A stretch of 64,000 bases of DNA from a virus. The first letter of the stretch is position 1; every line of letters starts with the position of its first letter. The position numbers and the translations under genes were made by a program. The notes under the pieces were generated by a model. That model saw nothing but the letters and a program-made list of their open reading frames with translations, had not been told where the DNA came from and ran no database searches. Positions 5,722-31,073 of this stretch are shown piece by piece. The stretch lies in IMG/VR virus record IMGVR_UViG_3300025930_000011, positions 1 to 64,000 of that record. One strand, written 5' to 3'.

Positions 5722-5729
5722 CGGAACAC

Positions 5730-6041: not shown

Positions 6042-6095
6042 CGGTGAAGCTCTCTGGTTTTTGTAGGGGTCAACATTGCACGATCTTGGCTTGAG

Positions 6096-6120: not shown

Positions 6121-6146
6121 GAGTACTTTGCTTTGCGCAGTCGTGA

Positions 6147-8625: not shown

Positions 8626-8676
8626 GGGTTTGGGAGGGAATGCATCGTGATGAAGGATTTGCGCAGAGGAGTTCGA

Positions 8677-9066
8677 ATGGCAGAACGAAATCAGGAAGAT
8701 CAAACGGTGAAGGTGGAGCAGGCGGCTGATATTATCACGATCCTTGCCTCACTGAGTCGGGGAAACTTCATCGTGGAGACAGGCAGGAAGTGCTGGGAGC
8801 TGACAGAGGCGATTGTCGACGTCCGCGCCAAAGGAAAGCTGGTAATCACCCTCGATATTGAGCCGGGTGGATTTGCCAAGGATGGGCGAGTGAATCAGTT
8901 CGTGATTCGCCCGGAAGTGAAGATCACCAAGCCCGAGCATCCTCAGGGCAAGTCGATCTTCTTTGTGACCCCGGATAACAAGCTAACGCGGAACGATCCG
9001 GACCAGGAAGAGTTGGAATTCTCATCATCATCAGAAAAGGAAGGCGATACGAATGGCAGACGTTAA
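8677..9066 (+). CDS. Phage protein preceding DUF2303 gene
   Basis: 129 aa from ATG 8677, chosen for AGGAG 5 nt upstream; GTG/ATG codons at 8647-8650 are alternatives. Contains VEQAADIITILASLSRGNFIVETGRKCWELTEAIVDVRAKGKLVITLDIEP, an alpha-beta domain often found next to DUF2303 genes in phages. An acidic/serine tail (EELEFSSSSEKEG) follows. It overlaps the next start by 14 bp. Likely part of the early recombination/replication module. Confidence 0.6.
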   Translation: MAERNQEDQTVKVEQAADIITILASLSRGNFIVETGRKCWELTEAIVDVRAKGKLVITLDIEPGGFAKDGRVNQFVIRPEVKITKPEHPQGKSIFFVTPDNKLTRNDPDQEELEFSSSSEKEGDTNGRR

Positions 9067-9946
9067 TATTGACGCGAATGTTTTGAGGGATGCGGTGGAG
9101 CTGGGCCAGCGGCTCGGTGAGCCTATGGTAGTGGGCGAAGGGATCGAGATCCCCTATGCGGTAGTGCCGAAGAATGCGGACTTGGTTCCGCTGCTTCATC
9201 TGAAGTACCCCTACGGTCTGCCGCCGCGCAAACCGGATCATATCAAGGCATCAGTGGCGCTTGGGGATGCTGCGAGTTTCTGCCGGTACGTGAAGCTGTA
9301 TCAGGATGAAACTACGCGAGTGTTCGCAAGTCCCGAGCAGTTCGGTTTTCGCGCCATTCTCGATTACCACCCGGCGATTCAGAAGCAGGTGGGCGATGGA
9401 AGCCCTGAGGCCGCCGATCTAGCCCCGGCGCCCGCCTCAGCTAACTTCACCGATCACAGTGCCACGCTGACCTTGAAGCGCTCGGACCAGTGGAACCTCT
9501 GGATGGCGAAAAACGAAAAGGCAATTCCACAAGCTGAGTTTGCGGAGTTCGTGGAAGACAACTACCGCGACATTGCGAGCCCTCCGCCTGCGGTGATGCT
9601 GGAAGTCGCCCGCGACCTAAAAGCCACCATTGATGTCAACTTTGCCTCCAAGGTTACGTCAAAGAATGGCGCGGTGCAGCTCGCCTACCAGGAAGTTGTA
9701 ACTGCCGGAGTGGGTCCGGCGGGCAACATGGAAATACCGGATACCTTCTCAATTCTGATTCCAGTATTCTATGGCGAAAAGCCTGTTCAGATCGAGGCGC
9801 GCCTGCGATTCCGGATTGCCAATGGAAAGTTGACCTTCATTTACAAGCTATACCGGCCTTTGGAGCTTCTCGCGGATGCATTCCAGTTGGCCGCGGTAAA
9901 GATCGGGGAAACGCTGGGGACTGACGTACTGCTCGGCTCGCTCTAA
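9053..9946 (+). CDS. DUF2303 (YfdQ-like) family protein
   Basis: 297 aa, the usual family length. Features of the family are visible: an N-terminal helix followed by PYAVVPKNADLVPL, FCRYVKLYQDETTRVFA near residue 80, WNLWMAKNEKAIPQAEFAEFVEDNYRDI near 150, and a C-terminal IPDTFSILIPVFYG...ARLRFRI...YKLYRP. The family is common in early regions of temperate phages and in the prophage gene yfdQ. Its biochemical role is unknown. Confidence 0.8.
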   Translation: MADVNIDANVLRDAVELGQRLGEPMVVGEGIEIPYAVVPKNADLVPLLHLKYPYGLPPRKPDHIKASVALGDAASFCRYVKLYQDETTRVFASPEQFGFRAILDYHPAIQKQVGDGSPEAADLAPAPASANFTDHSATLTLKRSDQWNLWMAKNEKAIPQAEFAEFVEDNYRDIASPPPAVMLEVARDLKATIDVNFASKVTSKNGAVQLAYQEVVTAGVGPAGNMEIPDTFSILIPVFYGEKPVQIEARLRFRIANGKLTFIYKLYRPLELLADAFQLAAVKIGETLGTDVLLGSL

Positions 9947-17712: not shown

Positions 17713-18707
17713 AAACGAAACTACGGATGAAGCTCGAAATCAAAGAGATCTCGGCAGAGGGAACCTTCGAGGGTCTACTCTCTCCGTACGGTAACGTCGA
17801 CGGCGGCGGTGACGTAGTGGAGCCTGGCGCCTACACCAAGACCCTGAAAGACCAGGGGAACGTGCGGCCGATGCTCTGGCAGCACAAGACGGATGTTCCG
17901 ATCGGTGATCTGACGCTCGACGATCGCCCCGATGGTCTCTGGTGTAAGGGGGCGCTGTTGATGGCGCTGCCCGAGGCGCAGAAGGCTTACCTGCTGATCA
18001 AGGCGCGTATCGTTAAGGGCCTGTCGATCGGCTTCGAGGCGATCCAGGATTCGGTGCAGAACGGTGTCCGCCGGCTAAAGGAGATCAAGCTCTACGAGGG
18101 ATCGATCGTCACCTTCCCGATGAACGAATCCGCGTTGATCACGAGCATTAAAGCGCGGAAGGAAACCAAGGGAGACTTCAATGAGGAACTGGCCGAGATC
18201 CAGTTATCCGACGCACGCTATCAGATGATGGGTGCGCTCTCCTGCGCGCTCTCCTCTGTGATCTGGGCAGACCTGAACCGCGACGAGAAGATTACCGCGG
18301 CCGAAGCGACAATTCAGCAATTCTCTGATGCCTTCATGGGGTTGCTGCCGGCCTACCTCGACATGCTGACTCAGCAGTACGGCGCGATGGAGACCTGGAA
18401 CCAGAAGCTCATCGAAACGAAATCAGGCCGCAAGATCAGCGCGGCGAACAAAGAAACTCTCAAGGCAGCCCACGCGCATATGGATGAAAGCTGTAAGGCC
18501 GCGAAGAGCGCCATGGATGCAATTTTTCCACTGTTTGACGACGGAGCCGAGGAGGAGGACGACGAAGAAAAGTCGAAGCCTCTGGTCATCACTCCACCGC
18601 CGGCAGCCGGATCCAAGCCCGAGCCGGTCAGTGATCACTCGGCATTTCTCGCAGCAATCGATAAATTCACGAAGGAGATTACATGGACCCCCTCGAGCAG
18701 AAACTAG
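17709..18707 (+). CDS. Prohead protease (HK97 family, S78) with long C-terminal extension
   Basis: 332 aa. The protease occupies about residues 8-150, with catalytic His H59 in LWQHKTD and Ser S106 in KGLSIGFEA, and YEGSIVTFPMNESA closing the domain. Residues 165-330 are a helical and acidic extension (EEEDDEEK), longer than in the simplest family members and plausibly a fused scaffolding (delta-like) region. It matures the capsid by cleaving the capsid N-terminal region. It overlaps the capsid gene by 25 bp. Confidence 0.9.
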   Translation: MKTKLRMKLEIKEISAEGTFEGLLSPYGNVDGGGDVVEPGAYTKTLKDQGNVRPMLWQHKTDVPIGDLTLDDRPDGLWCKGALLMALPEAQKAYLLIKARIVKGLSIGFEAIQDSVQNGVRRLKEIKLYEGSIVTFPMNESALITSIKARKETKGDFNEELAEIQLSDARYQMMGALSCALSSVIWADLNRDEKITAAEATIQQFSDAFMGLLPAYLDMLTQQYGAMETWNQKLIETKSGRKISAANKETLKAAHAHMDESCKAAKSAMDAIFPLFDDGAEEEDDEEKSKPLVITPPPAAGSKPEPVSDHSAFLAAIDKFTKEITWTPSSRN

Positions 18708-19891
18708 TCGAACTGACCGGCGTCATTACTACCTTCCGCGACAAAGCGCAGGAAGAGATGAAGACGCTCGGAACCACCACCACGGAGACCGCCACCAAAT
18801 TGGCAGCACTCCAAACGCAAATTGACTCGATCGACGCGAAGATGGCTGACCGCCAGGTTGCCGAAGAGCCGGCGTCGACCGTCGAGAAGGAGTTTAAGGA
18901 GAACGAGCAGATCCAGCGCCTGATGCGGGACAAGTCGGGTCGTGCTGTCATCCATCTCACCGAAAAGACCGCGCGCCAGATCTTCGCCCAGAAGACCACG
19001 ATCACCTCCGGAGCGATCGGTTCGGCAACTTCCGGCGTCTTGCAGATTGACCGCACTCCCGGAATTACCGGTGAGGCTCGGCAGGCTCTCAAGGTTCGCG
19101 ATGTTCTGAGCGCCCGCCCGACTCAGATGCAGGTGATCGACTTCGTGAAGGTGCTCTCCCCGCTAATCGCAGCCTCTCCGGTTTCGGAAGGCAGTCAGAA
19201 GCTCGAGAACGCTCTGACCTTCACCTCCGCCAGCGAGCGCGTGAAGACGATTGCGACCTGGATTCCGGCGTCGAAGCAGATCCTCTCCGACATGGGAGAA
19301 CTGATGGGCTTCATCGAGACCAGCCTGCCCTATTACGTCAATCTGGCGGAAGAACAGCAGCTTCTCTCGGGCGATAACACCGGGGAAAACCTGCACGGTT
19401 TGATTCCCCAGGCGACGGCCTTCAATACCGGCCTTCTGGTCGCGGCGGCCGGATGGAACAAGATCGATATCATCGGTCGCGCAATCCAGCAGATCACCGC
19501 GGCGAAGGAACTCGATCCAACCTTCATCGTTCTCCATCCGAATGACTGGTGGGGAATCCGCCTGACCAAGGACGGCTTCGGGCGTTACATCCTGGGAGAT
19601 CCGCAGCAGCCTTCGAGCGGCGGCACAACCGGAACCGATGTTCGGCCCAATATCTTCGGCCTCACCGTGGTGCACACTACCAGCATCACCACCGGCACCT
19701 TCCTGATTGGCTCGGGCTCTCCGATCGCCTCCGAGATTCGGGACCGCCTGGAGATGCAGGTCGAGGTATCAACGGAACATTCCGATTACTTCACACGAAA
19801 TCTTGTTGCAATACGAGCCGAAAAGAGACTTGCGTTAGTCACTAAGAGGCCAGCTTCGTACGTTACTGGCACATTTACAACCAGTCCGTAG
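18683..19891 (+). CDS. Major capsid protein (HK97 fold)
   Basis: 402 aa. The first ~110 residues are a helical delta-domain (KLVELTGVITTFRDKAQEEM...), followed by the HK97-fold core: VIDFVKVLSPLIAASPVSEGSQKLENALTF, IATWIPASKQILSDMGELMGFI, LLSGDNTGENLHGL, ADWWGIRL-type PNDWWGIRLTKDGFGRY and a C-terminal TRNLVAIRAEKRLALVTKRPASYV. The stop is followed at once by the promoter and hairpin of an HNH gene. The delta-domain is presumably removed by the upstream protease. Confidence 0.95.
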   Translation: MDPLEQKLVELTGVITTFRDKAQEEMKTLGTTTTETATKLAALQTQIDSIDAKMADRQVAEEPASTVEKEFKENEQIQRLMRDKSGRAVIHLTEKTARQIFAQKTTITSGAIGSATSGVLQIDRTPGITGEARQALKVRDVLSARPTQMQVIDFVKVLSPLIAASPVSEGSQKLENALTFTSASERVKTIATWIPASKQILSDMGELMGFIETSLPYYVNLAEEQQLLSGDNTGENLHGLIPQATAFNTGLLVAAAGWNKIDIIGRAIQQITAAKELDPTFIVLHPNDWWGIRLTKDGFGRYILGDPQQPSSGGTTGTDVRPNIFGLTVVHTTSITTGTFLIGSGSPIASEIRDRLEMQVEVSTEHSDYFTRNLVAIRAEKRLALVTKRPASYVTGTFTTSP

Positions 19892-19952: not shown

Positions 19953-20600
19953 ATGGACAAAAAGGAATATTTCAAACAGTACAAAGAAGCCAACAAAGAA
20001 AAGCTTGCCGAGAAGGCTAAGGAATACTATGCAAAGAACAAGGATAGGATGGCCGAGCAGAAACGAGCCTACTACCTTGCCAACCGGAAGCGTTTCATTG
20101 CGAGGGCCAAAGAGCGTTACGAGGCTGATCCGCAGGCTGTTATTGATAGAGCTGTCGCGTGGAACAGAGACCACCCCGAAGAGCGTAGTGTCATCAATCG
20201 AAAATGGGAATCCGCCAATATCGAAAAGCGCAACAAGTACTGTAAGGACCATCGCGAGCGCTACCCCGAATTTCACAAGAAGCGTCTTGTTGAATGGCGG
20301 AAGAGTAACCCCCTCCTGGTGCGCATGTACTGTGCCAACCGTCGCGGCCGGATCGAAGCGAGCGGAGGAGAAATCACTCCGGAGCAAGTTGAGGCGCTCT
20401 ACGAAAAACAGTCTGGCAAGTGCGCGGCATGCAAAAAGGATCTCAACATGCAGTACCAGTTAGACCACGTAATGCCGCTGTCGCTTGGCGGAGAACACAA
20501 GATCGAAAACGCGCAGATCCTGTGCCGAAAATGCAACCAAATGAAGCATGCCATGCACCCCGACGATTGGGCCGCTCGCATCGGCAAGCTATTCGTGTAA
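19953..20600 (+). CDS. HNH homing-type endonuclease
   Basis: 215 aa. The N-terminal ~140 residues are a Lys/Arg/Tyr-rich helical DNA-binding repeat region (KEYFKQYKEANKEKLAEKAKEYYAKNKDR...). The C-terminal HNH_5-like domain contains CAACKKDLNMQYQLDHVMPLSLGGEHKIENAQILCRKCNQMKH, with both zinc Cys pairs and the catalytic LDHVMPLSLGG. It is free-standing between the capsid and downstream head genes, with its own promoter and a structured ribosome site, as expected of a phage homing endonuclease. Confidence 0.9.
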   Translation: MDKKEYFKQYKEANKEKLAEKAKEYYAKNKDRMAEQKRAYYLANRKRFIARAKERYEADPQAVIDRAVAWNRDHPEERSVINRKWESANIEKRNKYCKDHRERYPEFHKKRLVEWRKSNPLLVRMYCANRRGRIEASGGEITPEQVEALYEKQSGKCAACKKDLNMQYQLDHVMPLSLGGEHKIENAQILCRKCNQMKHAMHPDDWAARIGKLFV

Positions 20601-20653: not shown

Positions 20654-20974
20654 ATGTCCAACGAATCAGTTTTACGAACAGGCTTCACGCCTGGAGAAGT
20701 AATAGCCGGGCCTGGAGTTGAAAAGACTCATCCCTCTTCCGGTCAGGTATCAACCTCGGGAATCACGGCCTCACCGCAAGTCCCCACCGGAACGATCCGC
20801 TTCAAGCTCGATGGTGTGGTGAAGACTATCAATGGCCCTGTTACTGGAGCGCAGCTTCACAAGATGGCGGGCTCCGTCGACGGATACCCGGTAGAACTCA
20901 ACGGAGTGCCGGATACGAACGATCCTTACCCGCTTCACCAAGATCAGGAACTGGCCACTTCAAAAGCCAAATGA
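20654..20974 (+). CDS. Small head-region protein with ubiquitin-like (beta-grasp) pattern
   Basis: 106 aa. After a disordered Ser/Thr-rich 45 residues, the segment TIRFKLDGVVKTINGPVTGAQLHKMAGSVDGYPVELNG...YPLHQDQELA resembles the multiubiquitin-type beta-grasp pattern (strand, strand, T-G-x-x-L helix, strand). There is no terminal Gly-Gly. It follows the HNH gene, with AAGGAG upstream. It may be a head decoration or assembly protein; the fold guess is from pattern alone. Confidence 0.4.
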   Translation: MSNESVLRTGFTPGEVIAGPGVEKTHPSSGQVSTSGITASPQVPTGTIRFKLDGVVKTINGPVTGAQLHKMAGSVDGYPVELNGVPDTNDPYPLHQDQELATSKAK

Positions 20975-21261
20975 AGCTTGTCTGCATCGCCCAGCAGCTC
21001 ACCGGGGAGTACGGAACGGTGACTGCTGGGCAGGAGTTCGAGTGCCGCGAGGATATCGCGATGCAGTTGATTCGTAGTGGCTCAGCGAAGAAGCCCGGGA
21101 ATCCTCGCGTGGTGTACGAGACCAAGCCCAAAACCTTCGAAACTCCCGAGGTGAGTCCGCGGCAACCGTTTCGTGACAGCTCTGTGCCTGACAAGAAATC
21201 GGCCTCAGTGGCTCCCAAAAGCGATCCGGTGCTTTCAGGCTCAGACGTACCCGCACCTTGA
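20971..21261 (+). CDS. Small head-region protein
   Basis: 96 aa, coupled by ATGA to the previous gene. The first 45 residues (MKLVCIAQQLTGEYGTVTAGQEFECREDIAMQLIRSGSAKK) match a short phage pattern in which a beta hairpin is followed by a helix ending in xLI.xGxA, common between capsid and connector genes. The Pro/Ser-rich C-terminal 30 residues overlap the glycosyltransferase start by 89 bp and may be recent. Confidence 0.55.
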   Translation: MKLVCIAQQLTGEYGTVTAGQEFECREDIAMQLIRSGSAKKPGNPRVVYETKPKTFETPEVSPRQPFRDSSVPDKKSASVAPKSDPVLSGSDVPAP

Positions 21262-21775
21262 AATGTTGATCGTAGCGGACGGTCAAGACGTTCGGGACCT
21301 ACTGCCGAGTAGTGACGATCGAATCAGGTTGCTGCATGTTGAAGGAAATTCATCCATTGGCGAAAAGCGAAACTTCGGCTGCCAGCAATCGGCCGGCAGC
21401 GTCATTATCCACTTCGATGACGATGACCATTCCGCGGATGGGAGAGTTTCTGACCAGGTTGAGCGCCTCATGGAAACCGGCAAGGCCGTCACTGGTTATC
21501 ATCGGCTCCGATTTACTGACGGAACTCACTGGTGGCAGTTCTCCGGCGCGCTCGACCGAGCACTCGGAACCTCCCTCTGCTACCGGAAAGCCTGGTGGGA
21601 GCATAGCCGGTTTCTCTCCCTTAACGTGGGTGAAGACAATATTTTTGCTTTCAACGCCTCTTGTGCCGGCCAGCTTTCGACCGCTGATGCTCAAGATCTG
21701 ATGTACGCAACGATTCACCCCGGAAATACAAGCCCCCGAGCCCTAACTGGAAGTGATTGGAGTTTACTGTCATGA
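21173..21775 (+). CDS. Family 2 glycosyltransferase
   Basis: 200 aa from GTG 21173, the first start after an in-frame stop, overlapping the upstream gene by 89 bp. GT-A features are VTALCLTRNRPQWLPKAIRCFQAQTYPHLEMLIVADG, GEKRNFGCQQSAG and the metal-binding FDDDDHSADG. It is paralogous to the gene at 23197, sharing CLTR.R..WLP.AI.CF..QTYP and DLMYATIHPGNTS. It would transfer a sugar from a nucleotide donor to an unknown acceptor. Relative to the paralogue it lacks about 12 N-terminal residues. Confidence 0.85.
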   Translation: MTALCLTRNRPQWLPKAIRCFQAQTYPHLEMLIVADGQDVRDLLPSSDDRIRLLHVEGNSSIGEKRNFGCQQSAGSVIIHFDDDDHSADGRVSDQVERLMETGKAVTGYHRLRFTDGTHWWQFSGALDRALGTSLCYRKAWWEHSRFLSLNVGEDNIFAFNASCAGQLSTADAQDLMYATIHPGNTSPRALTGSDWSLLS

Positions 21776-22110
21776 AGCTGAGTATGAAAAGACGATTTCT
21801 CTTTCTCCTGCTGCTGTTTTCCGTGTTCCTGATGGCCGGCAGCCCCGGCGGCGACATCACCGGGACTGGCGCCACGGTGCAGATCGCGAGCAGTGGCAGT
21901 GCCAGGTGGGTGCAGATCATCGCGGACAGTACAAACAGTGCGGTCGTTCGTACGGATCAGGATTCCTCTGTAAGTTCCACTGTGGGGCTCAAGATCCCGG
22001 CTGGAGGCGGCTTCCTGTATCCGCCTCAAGGGCAGAATTACCGGCTGGCCGGCATCTACGTCTACATCGCTAACGGGGACAAGATCAGCGTGATTTGGGG
22101 AAATCAGTAG
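21772..22110 (+). CDS. Small protein with signal peptide in head-tail region
   Basis: 112 aa from ATG 21772 (ATGA overlap). Residues 1-25 (MKLSMKRRFLFLLLLFSVFLMAGS) are a basic then strongly hydrophobic Sec-type signal or anchor. The rest is a Gly/Ser/Thr-rich beta domain (GATVQIASSGSARWVQIIADSTNSAVVR...GIYVYIANGDKISVIWGNQ) resembling small structural beta proteins in phage head clusters. An exported protein within the connector genes is unusual. Confidence 0.6.
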   Translation: MKLSMKRRFLFLLLLFSVFLMAGSPGGDITGTGATVQIASSGSARWVQIIADSTNSAVVRTDQDSSVSSTVGLKIPAGGGFLYPPQGQNYRLAGIYVYIANGDKISVIWGNQ

Positions 22111-22136
22111 GTAGGAATCCGGCCTCGGTCTAGTTC

Positions 22137-22814
22137 ATGTATCCTACTTTCGGAAACTCGTATCCGTGGTACGACACCTACGCCTCCTATGGGACGCTGG
22201 GCCTCACGGTCACCTCGCCGCCCCAGGTCTTTACCGAGCCCTTCACGCTCGATCAGGCGATCAGCTTCCTGAGACTTCCTCCAACGGCTCCGGCGAATCC
22301 TGGCCGTGACGATGATCTCAGGGACATGATCGTGGCGGCAAGAGTGCAGGCGGAGCTGCTACAGAACCGGGACCTAGTGGTGAAGTCCTTCGATTTATCG
22401 CTCGATTACTGGCAGAACACTTCAATCGAACTGCGGCCTCACTTGAGGACGGTTGACCTGGTGCAGCAGAAGGACTCGACTGGCGCCGTCATCGCTCTTA
22501 CCGAAGGAACCCAGTACGTGGTCGATACCAGTAAGCAGCCAGGTACGATCTCGCCGCCCTGGAGTATTGGAGCGTGGCCGAGTTACACTCCGTGGCCCTC
22601 TTCCTCGATTTTGATCCGTTTCACTGCGGGCGTTTCCTCTGACGATGCGTTCTGGTCAGATACCGGGGCCACGGTCAAGATGGGGATGCGCCGGCTGATC
22701 AACGAATGGTTCAGTAACCGGCTGCCTCTCTCGATGGGGAAGAGCGCGATCGAGGGATATCCGGACATCATTACTGCTCAGCTTTCGTATGGCGCTATCA
22801 CGAGGGTTCGGTAG
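22137..22814 (+). CDS. Head-tail connector (gp6-like adaptor)
   Basis: 225 aa. Contains the typical connector helix segment FTLDQAISFLRLPP...DDDLRDMIVAARVQAELLQNRDLV, then beta strands SFDLSLDYWQ...IELRPHLRTVDLV and a C-terminal VKMGMRRLINEWFSNRLP. This matches gp6-like (phiE125 gp8-type) adaptors that dock under the portal. It lies immediately before the head-closure protein, as usual. Confidence 0.8.
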   Translation: MYPTFGNSYPWYDTYASYGTLGLTVTSPPQVFTEPFTLDQAISFLRLPPTAPANPGRDDDLRDMIVAARVQAELLQNRDLVVKSFDLSLDYWQNTSIELRPHLRTVDLVQQKDSTGAVIALTEGTQYVVDTSKQPGTISPPWSIGAWPSYTPWPSSSILIRFTAGVSSDDAFWSDTGATVKMGMRRLINEWFSNRLPLSMGKSAIEGYPDIITAQLSYGAITRVR

Positions 22815-23204
22815 GTGGCGCAGAACTACCGCCGGCTGGTGGATATCTCGAGCGGCGAGCCGGTAATCGACTCGGGCAAGATGCGGCACTCGATCACCAT
22901 CGAGAGGGACGTGGTTGCAAGTCCTCCTGAGATCAACGAAGGCGGCGTGGTTTCATCGCCTCAAACCATAACCTCTGCCAATGCGGCCTTCGAGACGTAT
23001 AACACCGCGGATCAAATCCGGGATGGCCAGATCACCTCGCATATGGAAACGGTGGTTGCCATGTGGTATCAGCCGGGAATTTTAGGGGGCGACCGGGTGA
23101 TCATGCCAAGCGGCAATAAGTTGATCGTGGAGGATTTGGATAACGTTCTGCAGATGGATATCGTGCTGGTGTTGACGTGTACCGGCCTCGGAACCAATGT
23201 CTGA
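22815..23204 (+). CDS. Head-closure / head-tail stopper protein
   Basis: 129 aa from GTG 22815, directly after the connector stop. DSGKMRHSITIERDVV and QITSHMETVVAMWYQPGILGGDRVIMPSGNKLIVEDL fit phage head-tail joining (SPP1 gp16-like/HK97 gp7-like) proteins with an SH3-like beta barrel. It overlaps the next glycosyltransferase by 8 bp, so the cargo island begins in the connector operon. Confidence 0.75.
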   Translation: MAQNYRRLVDISSGEPVIDSGKMRHSITIERDVVASPPEINEGGVVSSPQTITSANAAFETYNTADQIRDGQITSHMETVVAMWYQPGILGGDRVIMPSGNKLIVEDLDNVLQMDIVLVLTCTGLGTNV

Positions 23205-23883
23205 TTTGACGAAAAGCAGCAATCTTCCCCTGGTGACCGCCCTCTGCCTCACAAGACAGAGAAAACACTGGCTTCCTCAAGCAATCGACTGCTTCAACCT
23301 GCAAACCTACCCGAATAAAGAACTGCTGGTGTTAGGGGACTCAAGAGAAGATCTCGAAGGATTGACATTTCCTCCAGGGTCACTGGTGAAATATACCGAT
23401 GGCGCCCAGCTGGTGGTAGGAGCAAAACGGAATGTCGGCTGCCAGGCGGCGAGAGGCGAAATCATCGCCATCTGGGACGATGACGACCACTCAGAACCGG
23501 GAAGGTTATCGCAGCAGGTGGAAATATTGCAGACGTCTGCAAGGTCCGTTACTGGATATAGAGAAATGAAGTTCACCGACGGCCGGGAGTGGTGGAGATA
23601 CCCGGGACCGGGAAAAGACTTCGTGCTGGCGACTTCCCTCTGCTTCCGGAAAGAGTGGTGGATGAAGCACCGGTTTGCCGAGATCCAGTGCGGACAGGAT
23701 GAGCAGTTTGCGGCGGAAGCGGGGCGGTTGGGGCAGCTCGTCGAGTGTCCCGATATGGATCTGATGTATGCGACGATTCACCCTGGAAATACTTCAGTGA
23801 GGCAGTTGAATGGAGGGCCGTGGTTGAAGATGCCAGCGGGGTTCCAGTGGAAGAAGGAAGCCCGCGAGGAGCAGGCGGCATGA
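23197..23883 (+). CDS. Family 2 glycosyltransferase
   Basis: 228 aa. VTALCLTRQRKHWLPQAIDCFNLQTYPNKELLVLGDS forms the first beta-alpha-beta unit; VVGAKRNVGCQAARGEIIAIWDDDDHSEPGRL holds the DxD-type metal site; SLCFRKEWWMKHRFAEIQCGQDEQF is the acceptor side. It is paralogous to the gene at 21173. A basic C-terminus (KKEAREEQAA) ends in an ATGA overlap with the next glycosyltransferase. Confidence 0.87.
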   Translation: MSDLTKSSNLPLVTALCLTRQRKHWLPQAIDCFNLQTYPNKELLVLGDSREDLEGLTFPPGSLVKYTDGAQLVVGAKRNVGCQAARGEIIAIWDDDDHSEPGRLSQQVEILQTSARSVTGYREMKFTDGREWWRYPGPGKDFVLATSLCFRKEWWMKHRFAEIQCGQDEQFAAEAGRLGQLVECPDMDLMYATIHPGNTSVRQLNGGPWLKMPAGFQWKKEAREEQAA

Positions 23884-24605
23884 CCCCTCAAGGAACAGTG
23901 CGGATGGGACTCTCTGTCATCATCCCGAGCAAGACGGCCTCGAATCTGGTGCCCTGTATGGACGCGCTGAGGAAGCAGCAGCCGGGCATTAATATCTTCG
24001 TTGCGGACGATGGTGTGGACTGGAAAGCTATCATGCTGTGGGTTGAGGCTGATCCGGGATTCACGGTGGGTTGGTGCTCAAGGCCATTTATCTACGCTAA
24101 AAACTGCAACTTTGGAATCTCTAAAACCTGGCAAGATGACATCGTTCTCTTGAACGATGACGCGATCCTTGAGACCCCCGGAGGCTTCACCGCGATGCAG
24201 CAATTCTGCTATGAGCATCCCGAGTACGGCCTCCTGTCAGCGCGGGTCAAAGGCAACGCGCATCACATTCACGCCTACAAGGAAGGTCTGACCGGTATCT
24301 CCGAAGGCGGCTTGGATGTCCCCTTCGTCTGTGTGTATATTCCGCGAAAAGTACTGGACAAAGTAGGGCCTCTCGATGAGCGCTTCACTGGCTCAATCGA
24401 TGGAGAAATGGTGTACGCAGGAGAAGACACAGACTACTGTATGAGAATCCGGCATGCAGGGTACAAGCTCGGAGTGTTTAACGAATGCGTGGTCGATCAT
24501 GGGACTCTGCCGAGTACTTTCCGGGGTCTCAATGGGAGCCTGCCGATCAATGCCACGATGAAGCGCTTCTATGAGATCCACGGCTTCCCCATGTGGAGCA
24601 GATAA
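23880..24605 (+). CDS. Family 2 (rhamnosyltransferase-like) glycosyltransferase
   Basis: 241 aa from ATG 23880. LSVIIPSKTASNLVPCMDAL and VADDG give the nucleotide-sugar fold. ILLNDDAIL-type DIVLLNDDAILETPGGF is the metal site. FVCVYIPRKVLDKVGPLDERFTG...GEDTDYCMRIRHAGYKLGVFNECVVDHG is the acceptor/catalytic region typical of rhamnosyltransferase-like GT2 enzymes. It is coupled to the preceding GT2 gene and 3 bp from a methyltransferase. Confidence 0.87.
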   Translation: MTPQGTVRMGLSVIIPSKTASNLVPCMDALRKQQPGINIFVADDGVDWKAIMLWVEADPGFTVGWCSRPFIYAKNCNFGISKTWQDDIVLLNDDAILETPGGFTAMQQFCYEHPEYGLLSARVKGNAHHIHAYKEGLTGISEGGLDVPFVCVYIPRKVLDKVGPLDERFTGSIDGEMVYAGEDTDYCMRIRHAGYKLGVFNECVVDHGTLPSTFRGLNGSLPINATMKRFYEIHGFPMWSR

Positions 24606-24608
24606 CCG

Positions 24609-25097
24609 ATGCTTAAGCTCAACCTGGGCGCGAATGATGACCGGAAATCGGGCTTCGTCTCGGTGGATATCTGCGAACCGGCAGATGTGGTCCATGACCT
24701 GAACTACCACTGGCCCTGGGAAAACTCGACCGTGGATGAAATCTATGCCCACGATGTTTTTGAGCACCTAGGACCGAGCAAAATCTGGCCGATGAATGAG
24801 GCCTGGAGGGTGTTGAAGCCCGGCGGCATCCTCGATTTGGCAGTACCGTGCGTGATGCTGGCCGATGGAAGAGTGAACCCGGGAGCCTTCGCAGACCCGA
24901 CGCATCGAACCTTCTGGACCCTGGATGATCAGTACTACTTCATGGAGCCATGGAACCATCCGGGAGGGGAAAGAGGAAGATTGGGACCGGCGTATGGGAT
25001 TCAGGCGCTGTTTCGGGGTGAGTGGCGGATGGTTGAGTACGGAGCATCGAATGAGCGGAGGAGTAAGATTCTGGCTCACCTTACGGCGGTGAAGTAG
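24609..25097 (+). CDS. SAM-dependent methyltransferase (class I)
   Basis: 162 aa. LNLGANDDRKSGFVSVDI is motif I with an acidic end of beta 2, STVDEIYAHDVFEHLGPSKIWPMNEAWRVLKPGGILDLAVP covers motifs II and III. The length and sequence fit small Methyltransf_11-type enzymes found beside glycosyltransferases, where they methylate sugars. Acceptor not determinable. Repeat copy 3 follows 58 bp downstream. Confidence 0.85.
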   Translation: MLKLNLGANDDRKSGFVSVDICEPADVVHDLNYHWPWENSTVDEIYAHDVFEHLGPSKIWPMNEAWRVLKPGGILDLAVPCVMLADGRVNPGAFADPTHRTFWTLDDQYYFMEPWNHPGGERGRLGPAYGIQALFRGEWRMVEYGASNERRSKILAHLTAVK

Positions 25098-25155
25098 ATG
25101 GGCGGAAAAGGCGCGGTTGTTGATTTGGTGGAGGGTTCACCTCGCCGCACCTGGG

Positions 25156-25180
25156 TCTGGCTCCCTTTGGTTGGTCGGGA
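25156..25180 (-). repeat. Dispersed 25-bp repeat, copy 3
   Basis: Plus strand reads TCTGGCTCCC...TTGGTCGGGA, with one mismatch (T for C). It lies in the only real intergenic gap of the cargo island, after the methyltransferase at 24609. Confidence 0.85.
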
Positions 25181-25269
25181 CTTGGTTTTGATGTGATGAC
25201 CATCCGCATATTTCTGCTGCTGAGCGCGATTATGGCCTTCTGTTGCCGGGATGGGGTGCGCTGAATTAC

Positions 25270-25356
25270 ATGTCTGAATATCAATTTGGCGTCGTGTCCG
25301 GTGTGCTGATGGCGGGTTGCGTCATCCTCTTGGTTATTCGCCTCCGGCGCAATTAA
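25270..25356 (+). CDS. 28-aa single-span membrane peptide
   Basis: MSEYQFGVVSGVLMAGCVILLV then a basic IRLRRN end: one transmembrane helix with positive residues inside. The TAA overlaps the ATG of the following methyltransferase (TAATG), which argues for coupled translation. Another 22-codon frame (25196-25264) precedes it but is not convincing. Confidence 0.4.
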   Translation: MSEYQFGVVSGVLMAGCVILLVIRLRRN

Positions 25357-25979
25357 TGTTTCACCTCACTCATAAAGAGCTATTGGAGCTGGCCTTCTGG
25401 CTGCGTTGCGACATGCAGGCTGAGGGTGTGCAGCTATTCCGGTATCTCGATGTCCTGAAGATTCCTTCGCCGGAGCAGAGTATCGGGGAATTTGTTAGCG
25501 CGTCCCTGCCGCGGCAAATCCTCGAGATCGGCACTGGGCCTCACTGGGGACTATTGCCCTTCATCGAAGCCGATCTGAAATTCGGAGTCGATCCCCTTTA
25601 TCCGGCATATGAAGCAGTCGGGATCCTGGAAGAACGAAACGGCATCCGGCGAGTGGATGAACCGTTCGAACACTGGGACACGGATCAGCAATTTGACCTC
25701 ATCCTAACGACCAATGCACTGGATCACGGAGAGATGGGATTCTACCTGCTGCCGAAGATCTGGAGGATGCTGAAGCCCGGCGGCCGGTTCTACCTGCACG
25801 TGCATCTGAGGCCAGAGGAACTGAAAAACCTCCTTCACGATCACCCTTTGACAGAAGAGCAGCTCGACAAGCATTTGGGATATACCGATCTGATTCAGGA
25901 GCGGAGAGAGTTGCTCGATAAGGATCTCGATGGGTTTGAGAGTAAGACACTGATCGGGGTGTGGAGGAAGCCGGAGTGA
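25356..25979 (+). CDS. SAM-dependent methyltransferase (class I)
   Basis: 207 aa from ATG 25356. After a helical N-terminus, ILEIGTGPHWGLLPF is motif I, FGVDPLYPAYEAVG holds the acidic residue, QQFDLILTTNALDH is motif II and IWRMLKPGGRFYLHVHL motif III. It overlaps the next methyltransferase start. Sugar methylation is likely from context, unproven. Confidence 0.85.
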   Translation: MFHLTHKELLELAFWLRCDMQAEGVQLFRYLDVLKIPSPEQSIGEFVSASLPRQILEIGTGPHWGLLPFIEADLKFGVDPLYPAYEAVGILEERNGIRRVDEPFEHWDTDQQFDLILTTNALDHGEMGFYLLPKIWRMLKPGGRFYLHVHLRPEELKNLLHDHPLTEEQLDKHLGYTDLIQERRELLDKDLDGFESKTLIGVWRKPE

Positions 25980-26566
25980 CCATCGGCAAGATTCAGCAAC
26001 TGAGCACGCAGGCCCCCGCCCTCGTTGCTCCGCCGCGTCCCCCGGAAATTCGCGCCATCACCCCCTTCGAGCGCTGGGACCATCACACCATCCGTGGGCT
26101 TGAGCGTAATTCCATCCGGGAATTCGTCACGAGGCACAAAGATCTGTTGACAGGCCGCGTGCTCGACTTCGGCGCAGGGAAAGAAGGGACCTGTTTAAAG
26201 CCTCAACCCTACCGTGACTTAGTTTCAGGAGAGTACGAGCCCTGGGAACCCGATGACAAGTGGCCGGTTCCAGAATATGATGCGATCCTTTGCACGCAGG
26301 TGCTGCAATACGTTCCAGATCCGGCGCTTGTCATCCACTGGTTTCATGGATGGCTGAAAGAGGGCGGGTATCTGGTGTTGACAGTGCCGACTTGCTGGGA
26401 CGAAGTGGAAGCCTCTGACTTGTGGAGGTGGACGAAGGCCGGGATCGAGAAGCTGCTGACTGATCAGAAGTTCGAAGTGCTTCAAGTCGAGCGGAGGGCG
26501 GAGATCGAGCTGGGAGGCTTTAAGTTTCCTCTGGGGTATGGAGTGGTTGCGAGGAGGAGGGGATAG
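25976..26566 (+). CDS. SAM-dependent methyltransferase (class I)
   Basis: 196 aa from GTG 25976 (GGAGG 8 nt upstream, GTGA overlap). GRVLDFGAGKEGTCLKPQPY is motif I, YDAILCTQVLQYVPDPALVIHWFHGWLKEGGYLVLTVPT covers motifs II-III. The gene ends with three consecutive AGG codons (VARRRG), codons read by the phage tRNA-Arg(CCU). It is the third methyltransferase in a row. Confidence 0.85.
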   Translation: MTIGKIQQLSTQAPALVAPPRPPEIRAITPFERWDHHTIRGLERNSIREFVTRHKDLLTGRVLDFGAGKEGTCLKPQPYRDLVSGEYEPWEPDDKWPVPEYDAILCTQVLQYVPDPALVIHWFHGWLKEGGYLVLTVPTCWDEVEASDLWRWTKAGIEKLLTDQKFEVLQVERRAEIELGGFKFPLGYGVVARRRG

Positions 26567-26604
26567 CCGGGAGCACCAATTGGCGGTGAAGTAAGCCATC
26601 CGGG

Positions 26605-27219
26605 ATGTCAACTCCGGACCCAATCCAAACTCCCGGTGACATTGGAAATTATATGACACGAGCAGGTTTTTTACAATCCCTCGCGGCGGTTGCGACTGCT
26701 GCGATTTCACCGAAGGGAGAGGCGGTTCACGCGGAGGCCTCCATCACGGCTGAAGAGTTCGTTCCAGAAGGGAAGCATTTTATCCTGAGCGTCCCTGGAG
26801 CACTGAGTCTATCGGCGTATGGGCAGGTACGGCGATGCTGCGATGAGGAGTTCCCGGGCTGCAAAGTTACGATTCTATCCGGCGGTGTGCGCCTTGAAGA
26901 AGTGCGTCCGCTTGGTACCGCCGATATCGCCTCTGCTGTGGAGTCGGGCGTGAGGCGTGCGCTCGAAGCGGATCGGGCCGAGCAGGAGGCGGACAGGGCA
27001 CGTGTTGCCCGAGAGTTGGCGGAAGCCGAGGAAAGGAAGCCCCTGTTCTTTTACGATGCCTTTACTCAGGGTATTGATGCGGGAAGGTATCGAGCGGCGG
27101 GCTACCGGCTGGTGGAAGTGAGGCGTGCCGGAAAGTTGCGCGACAAGGCCGCATGGCAGGAGTGTGTGGATCGCCTCAATCGTGAGCAGCGCCTCCCGAC
27201 CACGGATATCTACGCTTAA
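26605..27219 (+). CDS. Hypothetical protein in glycan island
   Basis: 204 aa, unrecognised. The N-terminal 45 residues include a weakly hydrophobic Ala-rich helix (RAGFLQSLAAVATAAIS), too weak for a certain signal peptide. Residues 110-150 are a charged coiled coil (VRRALEADRAEQEADRARVARELAEAEERK), and the C-terminal 50 residues form a separate alpha-beta unit (FFYDAFTQGIDAGRYRAAGYRLVEVRRAG). It lies between methyltransferases and a GT-D type enzyme. Confidence 0.55.
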   Translation: MSTPDPIQTPGDIGNYMTRAGFLQSLAAVATAAISPKGEAVHAEASITAEEFVPEGKHFILSVPGALSLSAYGQVRRCCDEEFPGCKVTILSGGVRLEEVRPLGTADIASAVESGVRRALEADRAEQEADRARVARELAEAEERKPLFFYDAFTQGIDAGRYRAAGYRLVEVRRAGKLRDKAAWQECVDRLNREQRLPTTDIYA

Positions 27220-27222
27220 AAC

Positions 27223-28056
27223 ATGACCGCCGCGGCTCCAAATCGCTGCTATACCTCCTTCTCAGCAGATGAGAGTGCGATCCTCCTAACACAGAAGATC
27301 CAAGCTCAGGAGCCCTTCTTCTTCGTTCGGTATGGAGACGGAGCCCTGGAATGCATGGCAGGAAAATCAGGGATGACCTGCGACCTGGAGCAGTATTCCG
27401 TGGACCTGGGTTTCCAGCTTCAATGGGCCTTCGAAACTCTGATGCGCGGGGGGCGCTGTAGCGCGCTTAATCCTGCTTGGTGTCGCGCGCCTCAGGAGCC
27501 ATGTGCTAAAGGCAAAAATGACCTGCGAAAGTGCCGGATTTACCCCAAGGTGTATGTGGGAGACTGGCTTTCGGCCTCATTCGACGCAGGCTCAGAGCAT
27601 GCACGGTATGCGCAGCAGTATGCTGAGCTAATCGGATCAGGTACTCCTGAATTCATTCACTTCGAAGCCCTGCTGCTAATGCGGGACTCTCGGGCGCTGC
27701 TCGACTTCTACAAGGCTGTGAAAGTGGATACCCGCCGCAAGCTCTACATGGGGCCACTTGATAATGAGTCCGCGGCGAAGATGCTTGGCGCTGAATTTAT
27801 TCCTACGCCGATGCGCGATCTGTTCCGATTCTCGGAAGTCTACAGTAGGGCTCTGCTCGATCGCGAGTTCGACATTCTGCTGTACGGCGCCGGAATGGCC
27901 GGCAATCTTCCAGTGGTCAAGTGCTGGCAGCAGTATCCAGGGAGAACGTACATCAATCTTGGCTCAGCTCTCGATGTTCTGTTCCAGGGTCACAAGACAC
28001 GAAGGCAGCAGTTGACCCCGGTTGCCGCGCGTCGGCTGTTCCAGGAGTTGCTGTAA
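27223..28056 (+). CDS. GT-D fold (DUF1792/SP_1767-like) glycosyltransferase
   Basis: 277 aa. FFFVRYGDGALECM (R36, GDG 38-40) matches the family signature R-x-GDGE; the motif's final Glu is shifted. RCRIYPKVYVGDWLSAS lies in the middle, and FDILLYGAGMAGNLPVV...RTYINLGSALD matches the family end (VLVIGG.G......iDiG.ALD). GT-D enzymes transfer sugars to protein-bound glycans in streptococcal adhesin glycosylation, a useful parallel for a virion-modifying role here. Exact specificity unknown. Confidence 0.7.
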   Translation: MTAAAPNRCYTSFSADESAILLTQKIQAQEPFFFVRYGDGALECMAGKSGMTCDLEQYSVDLGFQLQWAFETLMRGGRCSALNPAWCRAPQEPCAKGKNDLRKCRIYPKVYVGDWLSASFDAGSEHARYAQQYAELIGSGTPEFIHFEALLLMRDSRALLDFYKAVKVDTRRKLYMGPLDNESAAKMLGAEFIPTPMRDLFRFSEVYSRALLDREFDILLYGAGMAGNLPVVKCWQQYPGRTYINLGSALDVLFQGHKTRRQQLTPVAARRLFQELL

Positions 28057-28070
28057 AAAGGAGTATTTCC

Positions 28071-28262
28071 ATGTTTCCAGCTTTTCTCATTCAAGTTATC
28101 GTGGTGCTGATCATTGTGGGCCTGTTGTTATGGATCGTCCAGCAGATTCCAATGGATGCAGCGATTGCCCGGATTATCCGGGTTGTGGCTGTGGTCGCGG
28201 TTTGCCTCTGGCTGATTTCAATTCTGCTCGGCTATCCTCTGGTGTATCCCGTCAGGCGCTGA
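28071..28262 (+). CDS. Two-span membrane protein, Thivi_2564-like
   Basis: 63 aa from ATG 28071 with AAAAGGAG upstream. Two hydrophobic helices (residues 4-24 and 36-54) are separated by IPMDAAIARIIR. The arrangement LLLWIVQQIPMD...VVAVCLWLISILLGY matches the Thivi_2564 family of small membrane proteins that recur in phages and prophages. A holin-like function is possible, but its place in the glycan island makes this unclear. Confidence 0.65.
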   Translation: MFPAFLIQVIVVLIIVGLLLWIVQQIPMDAAIARIIRVVAVVAVCLWLISILLGYPLVYPVRR

Positions 28263-28843
28263 TGATCGACCTCAAGCAAGTAACCGCCATCATCGTCACA
28301 AAGGGAGATCGGGAGATCACTCCTGTTCTCGATTCGCTCTCTTGTTTCGGTGTGGTCTCAGCCTGGGATAACTCGCGATGCAAGGATCGAAAAGTGTTCG
28401 GGCGGTATCTTGCGGCGTTCTCAGCGTTGACGGATTTCATCTACGTGCAGGACGATGACTGCCTGGTGGACGGCGCGCGCCTCTGCCGCGAGTACGATCC
28501 AGCGTCGGGAGAACTTCTCTGCAACATGCTCAAGGGGCATCAGGCGGATTATCTGAACTGGCCTGGAGTGGCACTGGTAGGGTGGGGCTCGATCTTCCCT
28601 CGGTCGATGGTTGACTTCTCGCCGTACCTTTCGAGGTATCCCGAAGATGAGCTGTTTTACCGGGAGTGCGACCGGGTATTCACATACTTGAACCGGAAGA
28701 AAACGCGCCTCATCGATATCGGAGTTACCCATCTTGAAATCGCCCATGGGAAAGACAGGCTCTCTTTGGACCCCCGGCATGGAAATCACATGAGAGAGAT
28801 TTACCAGAGGCTTCAGGGGATCGAAAGGCAGGCGGCGGCGTGA
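28262..28843 (+). CDS. Glycosyltransferase-like protein (GT-A type)
   Basis: 193 aa from ATG 28262 (overlaps the preceding TGA). QVTAIIVTKGDREITPVLDSL is the first Rossmann unit, and FIYVQDDDCLVDGARLCREY holds a DxD-type metal site. LNWPGVALVGWGSIFPRSMVDF and YRECDRVFTYLNR form the rest. It is shorter than classical GT2 proteins; similar phage proteins occur with other glycosyltransferases. Coupled by ATGA to the next gene. Confidence 0.7.
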   Translation: MIDLKQVTAIIVTKGDREITPVLDSLSCFGVVSAWDNSRCKDRKVFGRYLAAFSALTDFIYVQDDDCLVDGARLCREYDPASGELLCNMLKGHQADYLNWPGVALVGWGSIFPRSMVDFSPYLSRYPEDELFYRECDRVFTYLNRKKTRLIDIGVTHLEIAHGKDRLSLDPRHGNHMREIYQRLQGIERQAAA

Positions 28844-29148
28844 TCATCGATCTCAGGGCTCGGCGTCCCCATACAGCGGAGGAGGCAGAGGTGATCAAGC
28901 GTGCGGAGGACAAGAATCCATGCCGGTGCTTCGTGGACGGTGTTGAGATCCAGAAAGTCTGGTATGTGGACACCGAAGCGGGAATTGTGAAGGCGGATTT
29001 TGATGCGGGTAATGGCGAGACCCTTCACGTTATGCGCTGGGATCGAGTGGCTGATCTGATTGAATCCGCTCGCAAGCAGGGCCGCGAAATATGCGACGAA
29101 GGGCAAGTTATTACTGAGATTTACCGTGGAAGGGTGGAGTTGGTTTGA
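28840..29148 (+). CDS. Small phage protein, paralogue of the gene at 6147
   Basis: 102 aa. CRCFVDGVEIQKVWYVDTEAGIVKADF and a C-terminal VITEIYRGRVEL match the protein at 6147-6521. Between these lies MRWDRVADLIESARKQGRE, a helix missing from the other copy. No known domain. The paralogue in the early region shows the fold is not tied to the glycan island. Confidence 0.6.
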   Translation: MIIDLRARRPHTAEEAEVIKRAEDKNPCRCFVDGVEIQKVWYVDTEAGIVKADFDAGNGETLHVMRWDRVADLIESARKQGREICDEGQVITEIYRGRVELV

Positions 29149-29750
29149 AGCTGTTACTGTCCCCCCACAACGATGACGAGGTTTTGTGGTGCGCGTACAC
29201 AATTATGCGCGAGAGGCCCACGGTGTGCGTGGTATTCGATTCCTACGTGCAGCCGTCGCGTGGCCTGGGGTCGTGTATTGCGGGGCGGCGTCGACAGGAA
29301 ACAATCGATGCGCTGGTGGAGTTGACCCGGGAGGAATACTGTAACGCGATGATAGCAGGCACCGAAGTCGAGCCCGACTTCCTCGGCTTCCGGGACGATG
29401 ACAAATTCTCAATGGACGGCCTGGCCAGTCTGACCGCCGCGCTTCATGGGCACTATAGAAACGTTGAGCAGTTATGGGCTCCCGCGATTGAGCAGGATGG
29501 CCACGAGCAACACAATATGGTGGGAGCCGCCGCGGATGCCGCCTTCCCGGGCCTCGTCACCCACTACCTGACGTACACGCGGAAAGTGGATGGGAAATCG
29601 CGCAACGGTACCGAGGTCCTGCCGCGCTCAGGAGACGACATCGCACGAAAGCTCCGCGCTCTGTCCTGCTATAGGTCGCAGCTCCAGATGGACCCGCGGC
29701 TTGGGTGTTGGCCTCACTTTGTGAATGATCTCCGGGAGTACGTGATCTGA
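29145..29750 (+). CDS. PIG-L/LmbE-family deacetylase
   Basis: 201 aa from TTG 29145, overlapping the preceding TGA. The zinc-binding signature SPHNDDEVLWC at residues 6-16 (PHxDDE) and a later GHEQHNMVGAAADAAF supply the ligands of the PIG-L fold. Such enzymes remove N-acetyl groups from GlcNAc-type sugars or related amides. Placement among glycosyltransferases suggests deacetylation of a glycan or sugar intermediate made by the island. Confidence 0.85.
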   Translation: MKLLLSPHNDDEVLWCAYTIMRERPTVCVVFDSYVQPSRGLGSCIAGRRRQETIDALVELTREEYCNAMIAGTEVEPDFLGFRDDDKFSMDGLASLTAALHGHYRNVEQLWAPAIEQDGHEQHNMVGAAADAAFPGLVTHYLTYTRKVDGKSRNGTEVLPRSGDDIARKLRALSCYRSQLQMDPRLGCWPHFVNDLREYVI

Positions 29751-30655
29751 TGACCACTTCCATTTCAGAGAAAGGAGATAGCGCGGAAGTAACGAGCCGG
29801 AGCACGGTGGGGCCGCTCCAGGCGGCCTCATCACTAGTCTCCAAATCCTCAGCATTGACCATGATCGACCTCCTTTATTTAACCTACAACCGGAAAGACT
29901 TCACTGCTGCTTCACTCAAGGCGCTGAAGCAGAATACCAACTGGTCCCTCGTCCGCAGATTCTCGGTGTACGATGACTGCTCGATCGACGGCACGCGGGA
30001 GCTGGTGGAGCAATTTCTGAACGAGCTGCAATCCATGGAAGGAGGCGGGCCAATTTGCACCTTGACCGTAGGAAAGCTCGGCGGGCCGGTATCGGTGATG
30101 GCCGAATTCCTCCGCGAGAAGAGTGACCTCGATCTGTTCTGCAAGCTCGATTCTGACGTGATTGTGCCTCCCGGATGGCTCGATAGCTGCCTTTCTGTGA
30201 TGAAGCGGAATCCTCTGGTCGACTTGCTGGGAATCGAGCCATGGCAAAGCAGAACGCCTCCACCGTGGGCCGCCGGTGTGCGCTCCGACCTCGATCAGGA
30301 TAAGCACCTGACTGCCTGGACGCAGGGGAAACCCGGCTTCGCAAAGTGTGACTCCATCGGCGGTATCGGCCTCATGCGACGAAAAGCCTGGGAAGGCAGA
30401 GGCTCCATGACTGTGCATGGTCCCAATGGAGTAGGGGGGTTTACCGACTGGCAGGTAGCGCACCGGGATGTCGTGAAAGGGTGGGTGATTCCCCCCTTGA
30501 AGCTGTTCCTGCTGGACAGGCTGCCGATGGAGCCGTGGAAGACCTTGAGTGTCCGGTATGAGGCGAAAGGCTGGCAGCGGCCGTGGAGCCGGTATGGAGT
30601 TGATGCGGCAGAGTTGTGGGGCTGGTGGATCAATGCAGATAACGGTAAACATTAG
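29750..30655 (+). CDS. Family 2 glycosyltransferase
   Basis: 301 aa. The first ~37 residues are Ser/Thr-rich and may precede the true start (ATG at 29861, MIDLLYLTYNRKDF). IDLLYLTYNRKDFTAASLKAL, VYDDCSIDGTRELVE and LFCKLDSDVIVPPGWLDSCL are the GT-A core with its DxD. AKCDSIGGIGLMRRKAWEGRG...GGFTDWQVAHRDVVKGWVIPP forms the acceptor part. It overlaps the tail-completion gene by 23 bp and closes the island. Confidence 0.87.
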   Translation: MTTSISEKGDSAEVTSRSTVGPLQAASSLVSKSSALTMIDLLYLTYNRKDFTAASLKALKQNTNWSLVRRFSVYDDCSIDGTRELVEQFLNELQSMEGGGPICTLTVGKLGGPVSVMAEFLREKSDLDLFCKLDSDVIVPPGWLDSCLSVMKRNPLVDLLGIEPWQSRTPPPWAAGVRSDLDQDKHLTAWTQGKPGFAKCDSIGGIGLMRRKAWEGRGSMTVHGPNGVGGFTDWQVAHRDVVKGWVIPPLKLFLLDRLPMEPWKTLSVRYEAKGWQRPWSRYGVDAAELWGWWINADNGKH

Positions 30656-31073
30656 CGGCTTGCAGGGCGTGGAGGATGCTCTCCATGATGCAGGCCCGAA
30701 GCTCGCAAAAGCGGCGCTTCGGAAGGGGCTAAGGGCCGGCGCGGACATATTCATAGCGGATGCAAAATCCCGCGCTCCCATTCTAAAAAAGCCTCATCCT
30801 CACCGGAATCCCGGAGACCTGAAAGACTCCATTGGCGCGGTGATCAAAATGTCTCCCAAGCAGGAATACGGTACCGTGCATGTGGGGCCGAAGAGGGAGC
30901 GCGGAAAAGGTAGTGAACAGCCTGGAGTGTATGGCATGTTCGTCGAATTCGGTACCGATGATGCTGCGGCGCAACCGTTCATGCGGCCGGCGTTTGATTC
31001 GAAGCACCAGCAGGCACAAGAGGCGTTTACGGCTGAGATGAAGGCTGGCGTGGAGGCGCTCGGTAAGAAGTGA
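30633..31073 (+). CDS. Tail completion protein (HK97 gp10-like)
   Basis: 146 aa from ATG 30633, inside the 3' end of the glycosyltransferase gene. ISGLQGVEDALHDAGPKLAKAALRKGLRAGADIFIADAKSRAPI followed by GDLKDSIGAV and VYGMFVEFGTDDAAAQPFMRPAFDSK is the HK97-gp10 family pattern. It helps finish the head-proximal end of the tail. The overlap shows the island is spliced tightly into the late operon. Confidence 0.85.
   Translation: MQITVNISGLQGVEDALHDAGPKLAKAALRKGLRAGADIFIADAKSRAPILKKPHPHRNPGDLKDSIGAVIKMSPKQEYGTVHVGPKRERGKGSEQPGVYGMFVEFGTDDAAAQPFMRPAFDSKHQQAQEAFTAEMKAGVEALGKK

Follow-up and report, generated by a model that had tools for sequence, protein, structure and literature searches.

The stretch of DNA analysed here, which we call the window, comprises positions 1–64,000 of the 64,474-base IMG/VR record IMGVR_UViG_3300025930_000011, and between its head genes and its tail genes lies an island of genes for glycosyltransferases (GTs), methyltransferases and a deacetylase. 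The window encodes an integrase (621–1871, minus strand), small and large terminase subunits, a portal, an HK97 capsid protein, and head-closure, tail-completion, tail-terminator, tail-tube and tape-measure proteins, and because of this set of integrase, terminase, head and tail genes the source virus, a virus of soil, is identified as a temperate HK97-type siphophage. Among cultured phages, such as Xanthomonas phages MK21 and phiL7, identity to its major capsid protein (MCP) does not exceed about 40%, and the closest bacterial match to this protein, at 65–66% identity, lies on two contigs of one Acidobacteriia metagenome-assembled genome; since the nearest prophage relatives lie in Acidobacteriia genomes, we place the host in Acidobacteriota. 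The genes of the island and its borders are listed below, together with ratios of nonsynonymous to synonymous substitution (dN/dS) relative to V2, a second virus that we assembled from two contigs (L002 and L005) sharing 3,628 identical overlapping bases.

18683–19891, plus strand: HK97-fold MCP, the anchor of our comparison (Phage_capsid, E 1e-31; phrog_10)
19953–20600: HNH homing-type endonuclease, an insertion downstream of the capsid gene that V2 lacks
20971–21261, plus strand: small phrog_2616 protein upstream of GT2a, overlapping the start of GT2a by 89 bases
21173–21775, plus strand: GT2a, glycosyltransferase family 2 (PF00535, E 6e-16; conserved DDDD motif; dN/dS 0.19)
21772–22110, plus strand: small protein with a signal-peptide-like N-terminus (hydropathy)
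22137–22814, plus strand: protein resembling a head-tail connector, an assignment from position and homologues; relatives have it at the same place; no Pfam or PHROG match
22815–23204, plus strand: head-closure protein (Phage_HCP, E 1e-5)
23197–23883, plus strand: GT2b, paralogue of GT2a (47% identity; PF00535, E 1e-10; dN/dS 0.13)
23880–24605, plus strand: GT2c, glycosyltransferase family 2 (PF00535, E 5e-5; dN/dS 0.28)
24609–25097, plus strand: MT1, class I S-adenosylmethionine (SAM) methyltransferase (PF08241, E 7e-5; phrog_6636, E 8e-8; dN/dS 0.03)
25270–25356, plus strand: hydrophobic open reading frame (ORF) of 28 amino acids (aa) in the gap between MT1 and MT2
25356–25979, plus strand: MT2, class I SAM methyltransferase (PF13489, E 2e-6; dN/dS 0.04)
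25961–26566 (alternative start 25976), plus strand: MT3, class I SAM methyltransferase (PF13489, E 7e-11; motif VLDFGAG)
26605–27219, plus strand: protein without a family match in Pfam or PHROG, 96% identical in the near relative
27223–28056, plus strand: candidate GT-D-fold enzyme, label unconfirmed, kept in island relatives (PF22882, E 0.06, below cut-off)
28071–28262, plus strand: two-helix membrane protein of 63 aa (hydropathy 3.18)
28262–28843, plus strand: GTl, GT-A-fold glycosyltransferase with an invariant QDDDC (alignment, AlphaFold2, Foldseek)
28840–29148, plus strand: small phrog_3540 protein, an insertion missing from the near relative
29145–29750, plus strand: N-deacetylase of the PIG-L/LmbE type, its HxDD and HxxH residues invariant (PF02585, 27.9 bits; PDB profile matches)
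29750–30655, plus strand: GT2d, glycosyltransferase family 2 (PF00535, E 2e-8; PDB profile match to heparosan/chondroitin synthase)
30549–31073 (likely start 30633), plus strand: tail-completion protein, HK97 gp10-like (PF04883, E 5e-7; phrog_5, E 2e-20)
from 31070: tail terminator (Pfam)

This gene order and these reading frames agree with a preliminary description of the window. That description also held that the island leaves no gap for separate promoters; a gap of 258 bp does exist, from the MT1 stop to the MT2 ATG (25098–25355), and it contains tiny hydrophobic ORFs only, but scans for promoters and terminators gave no more matches than in shuffled sequence. Together, the late-region location, the coding overlaps and the lack of internal promoter signals above those of shuffles would fit co-expression of the island with the virion genes. 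The tiny hydrophobic ORFs of the island (25196–25356 and 28071–28262) are 22, 28 and 63 aa long, and the V2 counterpart of the ORF preceding MT2 differs, at 71 aa.

Most of the enzyme assignments held when examined with profiles and structure prediction. All four GT2 proteins (21173, 23197, 23880 and 29750) exceed the PF00535 gathering score and carry an acidic DxD-type motif, and the three class I methyltransferases (24609, 25356 and 25961/25976) lie above the cut-off for Methyltransf_11/23. The PIG-L protein (29145) falls 0.3 bits short of the PF02585 cut-off (27.9 against 28.2 bits), yet its metal-site motif is intact, with residues H8, D10, D11, H120 and H123 invariant in an alignment of 8 homologues, and a PIG-L profile run against the PDB matches solved de-N-acetylases. 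The product of the gene at 28262, previously called GT-like, has no Pfam match and can now be assigned a GT-A fold: its AlphaFold2 model (six homologues) has a mean predicted local distance difference test score (pLDDT) of 86, the QDDDC motif is invariant, and the best PDB matches found by Foldseek are mostly GT-A glycosyltransferases (E about 1e-4, TM-score 0.4–0.56). The model also distantly resembles STIV A197 and a capsid-glycosylation enzyme of PBCV-1 (2p6w/2p72, TM-score 0.35–0.42). Structure prediction failed for the product of the gene at 27223 (pLDDT 43, an unreliable model), and its earlier GT-D label was not borne out by Pfam, PDB profiles, AlphaFold2 or Foldseek. Its PF22882 matches in Pfam, where six homologues were included as well, stay below the cut-off (E 0.02–0.06), PDB profile searches returned no match, and a PF22882 search of 101 genomes was silent, as were its controls. 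Within the same gene, 27449–27545 contains an 84-base in-frame insertion, a Cys-rich stretch missing in five homologues. By hydropathy, none of the island enzymes has a membrane helix, which indicates that they are soluble.

The island occupies a fixed place at the head/tail junction of related phages. In a search anchored on the MCP, which involved no selection for GTs, every one of the 16 relatives whose MCPs are 37% identical or better and are followed by no fewer than two genes has GT genes in the interval from the MCP to the tail genes or to the end of the contig, some of these relatives sharing a virus or a sample; the five relatives at 34–36% MCP identity have no GT by the profiles used. 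One distant relative scored as island-less (L024) has ORFs that look GT-like by eye and lie outside the profile scan. A second search, anchored on GT2a, the conserved first enzyme of islands across relatives, yielded 80 contigs; 72 loci overall with a recognisable structural gene were scored, and GT2a follows head genes and/or precedes tail genes in 71 of the 72, with both flanks visible in 34. In the cultured relative Xanthomonas phage MK21 the capsid, adaptor, closure and tail genes are consecutive, with no GTs there, and because of this uninterrupted head-to-tail succession we regard the island as an insertion. Among 299 Acidobacteriota-class genomes the GT2a profile matches 11 at E < 1e-20. 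The six strongest prophage copies (E < 1e-67) and one weaker one (G048) sit among phage structural genes; the other weaker matches that we inspected in Acidobacteriota genomes lie outside such genes. Judged from sequence, the GT2a subfamily is a phage enzyme. Island-bearing prophages are present in assembled Acidobacteriota genomes, one of them on a single contig of 6.7 Mb. Relatives carrying the same genes outside the late operon had been named in the preliminary description as grounds for doubt; in the relatives we checked, the genes remain in the late operon.

Comparison with V2 shows that the island enzymes are under purifying selection. V2 matches the window in head genes and island, and its identity with the window stops at 30628, directly after the last GT2 gene, beyond which the tail genes diverge (heads are 82–100% identical, tails about 35%). 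For every island enzyme dN/dS between the two viruses is 0.03–0.28, and we therefore consider these to be working, selected genes and not chance ORFs. V2 has neither the HNH gene (19953) nor the small gene that starts at 28840, which makes these two separate insertions.

Beyond this pair the content of the island is hypervariable, each phage having a different subset. Relatives carry additional genes for a DegT/DnrJ/EryC1 aminotransferase, an NAD epimerase, FkbM and Methyltransf_24 methyltransferases, radical-SAM/B12, TOD1/MUCI70, DUF6625, GT9 and YdjC proteins and a 2-oxoglutarate (2OG)-Fe(II) oxygenase, a repertoire that is, by predicted function, one of sugar chemistry. The oxygenase (L055, 10188–10868) belongs to a prolyl-hydroxylase-like superfamily, lies inside a glycan island and could make a hydroxylated acceptor; B12-binding radical-SAM enzymes stand at the head of the glycan islands in one phage group (L073, L075, L077, L079 and L091). 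PIG-L, the 28262-type GT and MT3 are found together (7/7, p 2e-8; 6 shared, p 1e-5 to 4e-6), with p-values that ignore relatedness. In one contig (L039) YdjC, of another deacetylase family, lies directly upstream of a 29750-type GT gene, in the usual place of PIG-L, a replacement suggesting that the 29750-type GT branch includes the de-N-acetylation of an amino sugar.

Comparing gene neighbourhoods across related phages, as the preliminary description had proposed, indicates that the island moves as a unit. Four contigs (L130, L132, L129 and L066) carry a near-identical ordered set of MT1, MT3, 27223, 28262, PIG-L and 29750 between head-closure and tail-terminator genes, the order of PIG-L and 28262 being reversed in L066 and L129 being a short contig. 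The proteins encoded by this set are 37–67% identical to those of the window, whereas the MCPs of these contigs have no match to that of the window and their portals are only 24–26% identical. It is this recurrence of the window's set in phages with unrelated heads that leads us to conclude that the cassette moves as a unit. A comparison restricted to V2 would suggest that the island follows the head module, an idea that we reject as L130 and L132 share the cassette and the tail terminator with the window but not the heads. Because V2 shares heads and swaps tails, and L130 and L132 do the reverse, the cassette belongs to the junction and to neither module. Many related viruses have versions of their own of the gene set at this spot, and the set may thus amount to an exchangeable sugar coat. 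A more far-reaching proposal, which we put forward tentatively, is that the junction in Acidobacteriota siphophages is a dedicated "glyco-cassette" locus in which whole sets of genes, for GTs, methyltransferases, deacetylases, aminotransferases and epimerases, are swapped as units, giving combinatorial virion coats, including methylated, positively charged glycans of de-N-acetylated amino sugars, in a manner comparable to bacterial serotype variation.

There is strong support for a multi-step glycan pathway encoded within the late morphogenesis operon. We judge it somewhat probable, on balance, that this pathway is late-expressed and cytosolic and serves to decorate virion proteins of the phage itself, modification of virions in the cytosol being favoured because soluble GTs adjoin assembly genes in the late operon. 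The first sugar would be added by the GT2 at 21173 and/or its paralogue at 23197, most likely to a capsid, decoration, tail or fibre protein; the enzymes at 23880, 28262 and 29750, and possibly 27223, would extend the chain using host nucleotide sugars, PIG-L would de-N-acetylate an amino sugar, and hydroxyls would be capped by the three methyltransferases. The outcome would be a surface glycan with a shielding or tuning effect on the particle, and it would be strain-specific, because the subset of enzymes differs phage by phage. The order of steps, the sugars, the acceptor and the benefit are all part of this putative scheme. Virion proteins, the target proposed in the preliminary description, are the acceptors best supported, indirectly, by the fixed location at the head/tail junction, the solubility of the enzymes, the lack of lipid-carrier, GtrA and thymidylate-synthase-type DNA-modification genes and the mycobacteriophage precedent; host-surface and exported-protein targets are less probable.

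Several considerations weigh against virion decoration. The acceptor is supported indirectly, by context. The head/tail junction doubles as a boundary for recombination, at which V2 swaps tail genes and L130 and L132 swap head genes, so that the position of the island could reflect tolerance of insertions and not function. Some islands contain proteins with signal peptides, which suggests exported acceptors. Lastly, a search of cultured phages for the island DNA, GT2a, GT2d, PIG-L and 27223 returned no match.

The enzymes might instead alter the host surface glycan or its precursors in infection or lysogeny, leading to receptor masking or superinfection exclusion. GT2 enzymes with acetyl- and methyl-modifying enzymes are classic conversion genes, the phage is temperate, and polysaccharide synthases are among the solved structures related to the GT2s. 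At its right end, on the minus strand, the window also encodes an OafA-type acyltransferase (Acyl_transf_3, 60907–61965) and a protein with a TonB C-terminal domain (60572–60925), which, away from the late operon, are likely a lysogenic-conversion pair. However, the acyltransferase, the typical conversion gene, lies apart from the island and on the opposite strand, and the island itself is inside the late operon and does not adjoin the integrase. Nor does the island encode a membrane GT, and genes of the GtrA, WecA and WbaP types, which include the lipid-carrier transferases, were not found in the genome in searches whose controls worked, leading us to regard host-surface modification as unlikely. 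A lower likelihood attaches to the idea that the acceptors are phage-encoded secreted proteins, fibre-like and with signal peptides, that receive their glycans in the cytosol and are exported afterwards, as happens in HMW1 or Fap1 systems. Signal-peptide-like ORFs number 21 of 455 between MCP and tail genes compared with 12 of 678 elsewhere, a small excess by a crude heuristic; L130 has about five of them between its genes of the 27223 and 28262 types, and v6 secreted proteins come after GT2a in seven loci. Most islands, though, are without such proteins, and 28262-type and other GTs occur in their absence. Signal-peptide-like starts are found in the window on fibre-like or small proteins at 21772–22110, 44212–45234, about 45218–46993, 49192–51915 and 52914–56294, and in relatives (L130, 8723–11404; L066, 13205–14218), several of them within glycan islands; in one example, MKRFVITSLFLLTVFVAALSQ precedes a tail-fibre-type repeat. 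Starts of this kind are unusual for virion proteins.

Two further explanations concern the coherence of the island and its substrate. If the junction simply tolerated the insertion of assorted moron genes that share no pathway, the HNH endonucleases and unrelated small genes that insert there, and the recombination of both flanks, would be expected; yet the content is overwhelmingly GTs, methyltransferases and sugar-modifying enzymes, subsets co-occur in conserved order and the enzymes are under purifying selection, all of which makes such a site improbable. Hypermodification of the bases of phage DNA has precedents, one being Shewanella phage Thanatos, for which PMC12838424 describes a pentose on cytosine. 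In the window's genome a thymidylate-synthase homologue was not found (controls worked), the methyltransferases match small-molecule families and not DNA methylases, and PIG-L and the sugar aminotransferases of relatives fit the chemistry of sugars and not of bases; a search for Tet_JBP was also without a match, a weak result as its control was silent. We consider DNA modification very improbable.

Decoration of virion proteins has parallels in known systems. Mycobacteriophage enzymes glycosylate capsid and tail-tube proteins (Freeman 2023, as cited in PMC12363180), and the same citation covers Che8, Corndog and Myrna, mycobacteriophages whose own GTs modify proteins of the capsid and tail; compared with those systems as described there, the window has about six GTs, three methyltransferases and a deacetylase in one block in the morphogenesis operon. 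Capsid glycosylation in PBCV-1 likewise involves virus-encoded soluble GTs with an associated methyltransferase, and A64R of this eukaryotic-virus system has a GT-A domain and an O-methyltransferase-like domain, but PBCV-1 is an unrelated virus of eukaryotes and the structural match of 28262 is distant. The podovirus ctKR88 (MW202524, Manatee Spring) also has putative GT and methyltransferase genes right after the major capsid gene, although it is an unrelated phage of another type with other enzymes; its cluster spans 679–9510 of MW202524.1 (our L134). Temperate-phage O-antigen conversion clusters (gtrABC, oac) are phage-borne sugar-modifying genes too, but the island has neither GtrA nor any transmembrane enzyme, membrane GTs included, and lies in the late operon and not by attP. 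In glycosylation of Fap1 and other serine-rich repeat proteins (GT-D/DUF1792, GalT1; PMC5063993) the resemblance is to individual enzymes, as the GT2a profile run against the PDB retrieves GalT1 (5hea) and 27223 weakly resembles the GT-D-like family, its membership being unconfirmed, whereas no serine-rich adhesin was seen here.

Full-text literature searches, with subscription literature outside their reach, found no description of such an island. Phage-encoded virion glycosylation is already known, and what is new is a much larger form, both hypervariable and exchangeable, in phages from a phylum that has received little study. To our knowledge, only a few phages have been shown to glycosylate their virions, and the enzymes involved were few. 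If our interpretation of a multi-enzyme cassette exchanged horizontally at one fixed locus in soil phages is correct, particle-surface glycans would be a major axis of phage diversity, and the purpose of phage glycans would become testable by comparing natural cassettes.

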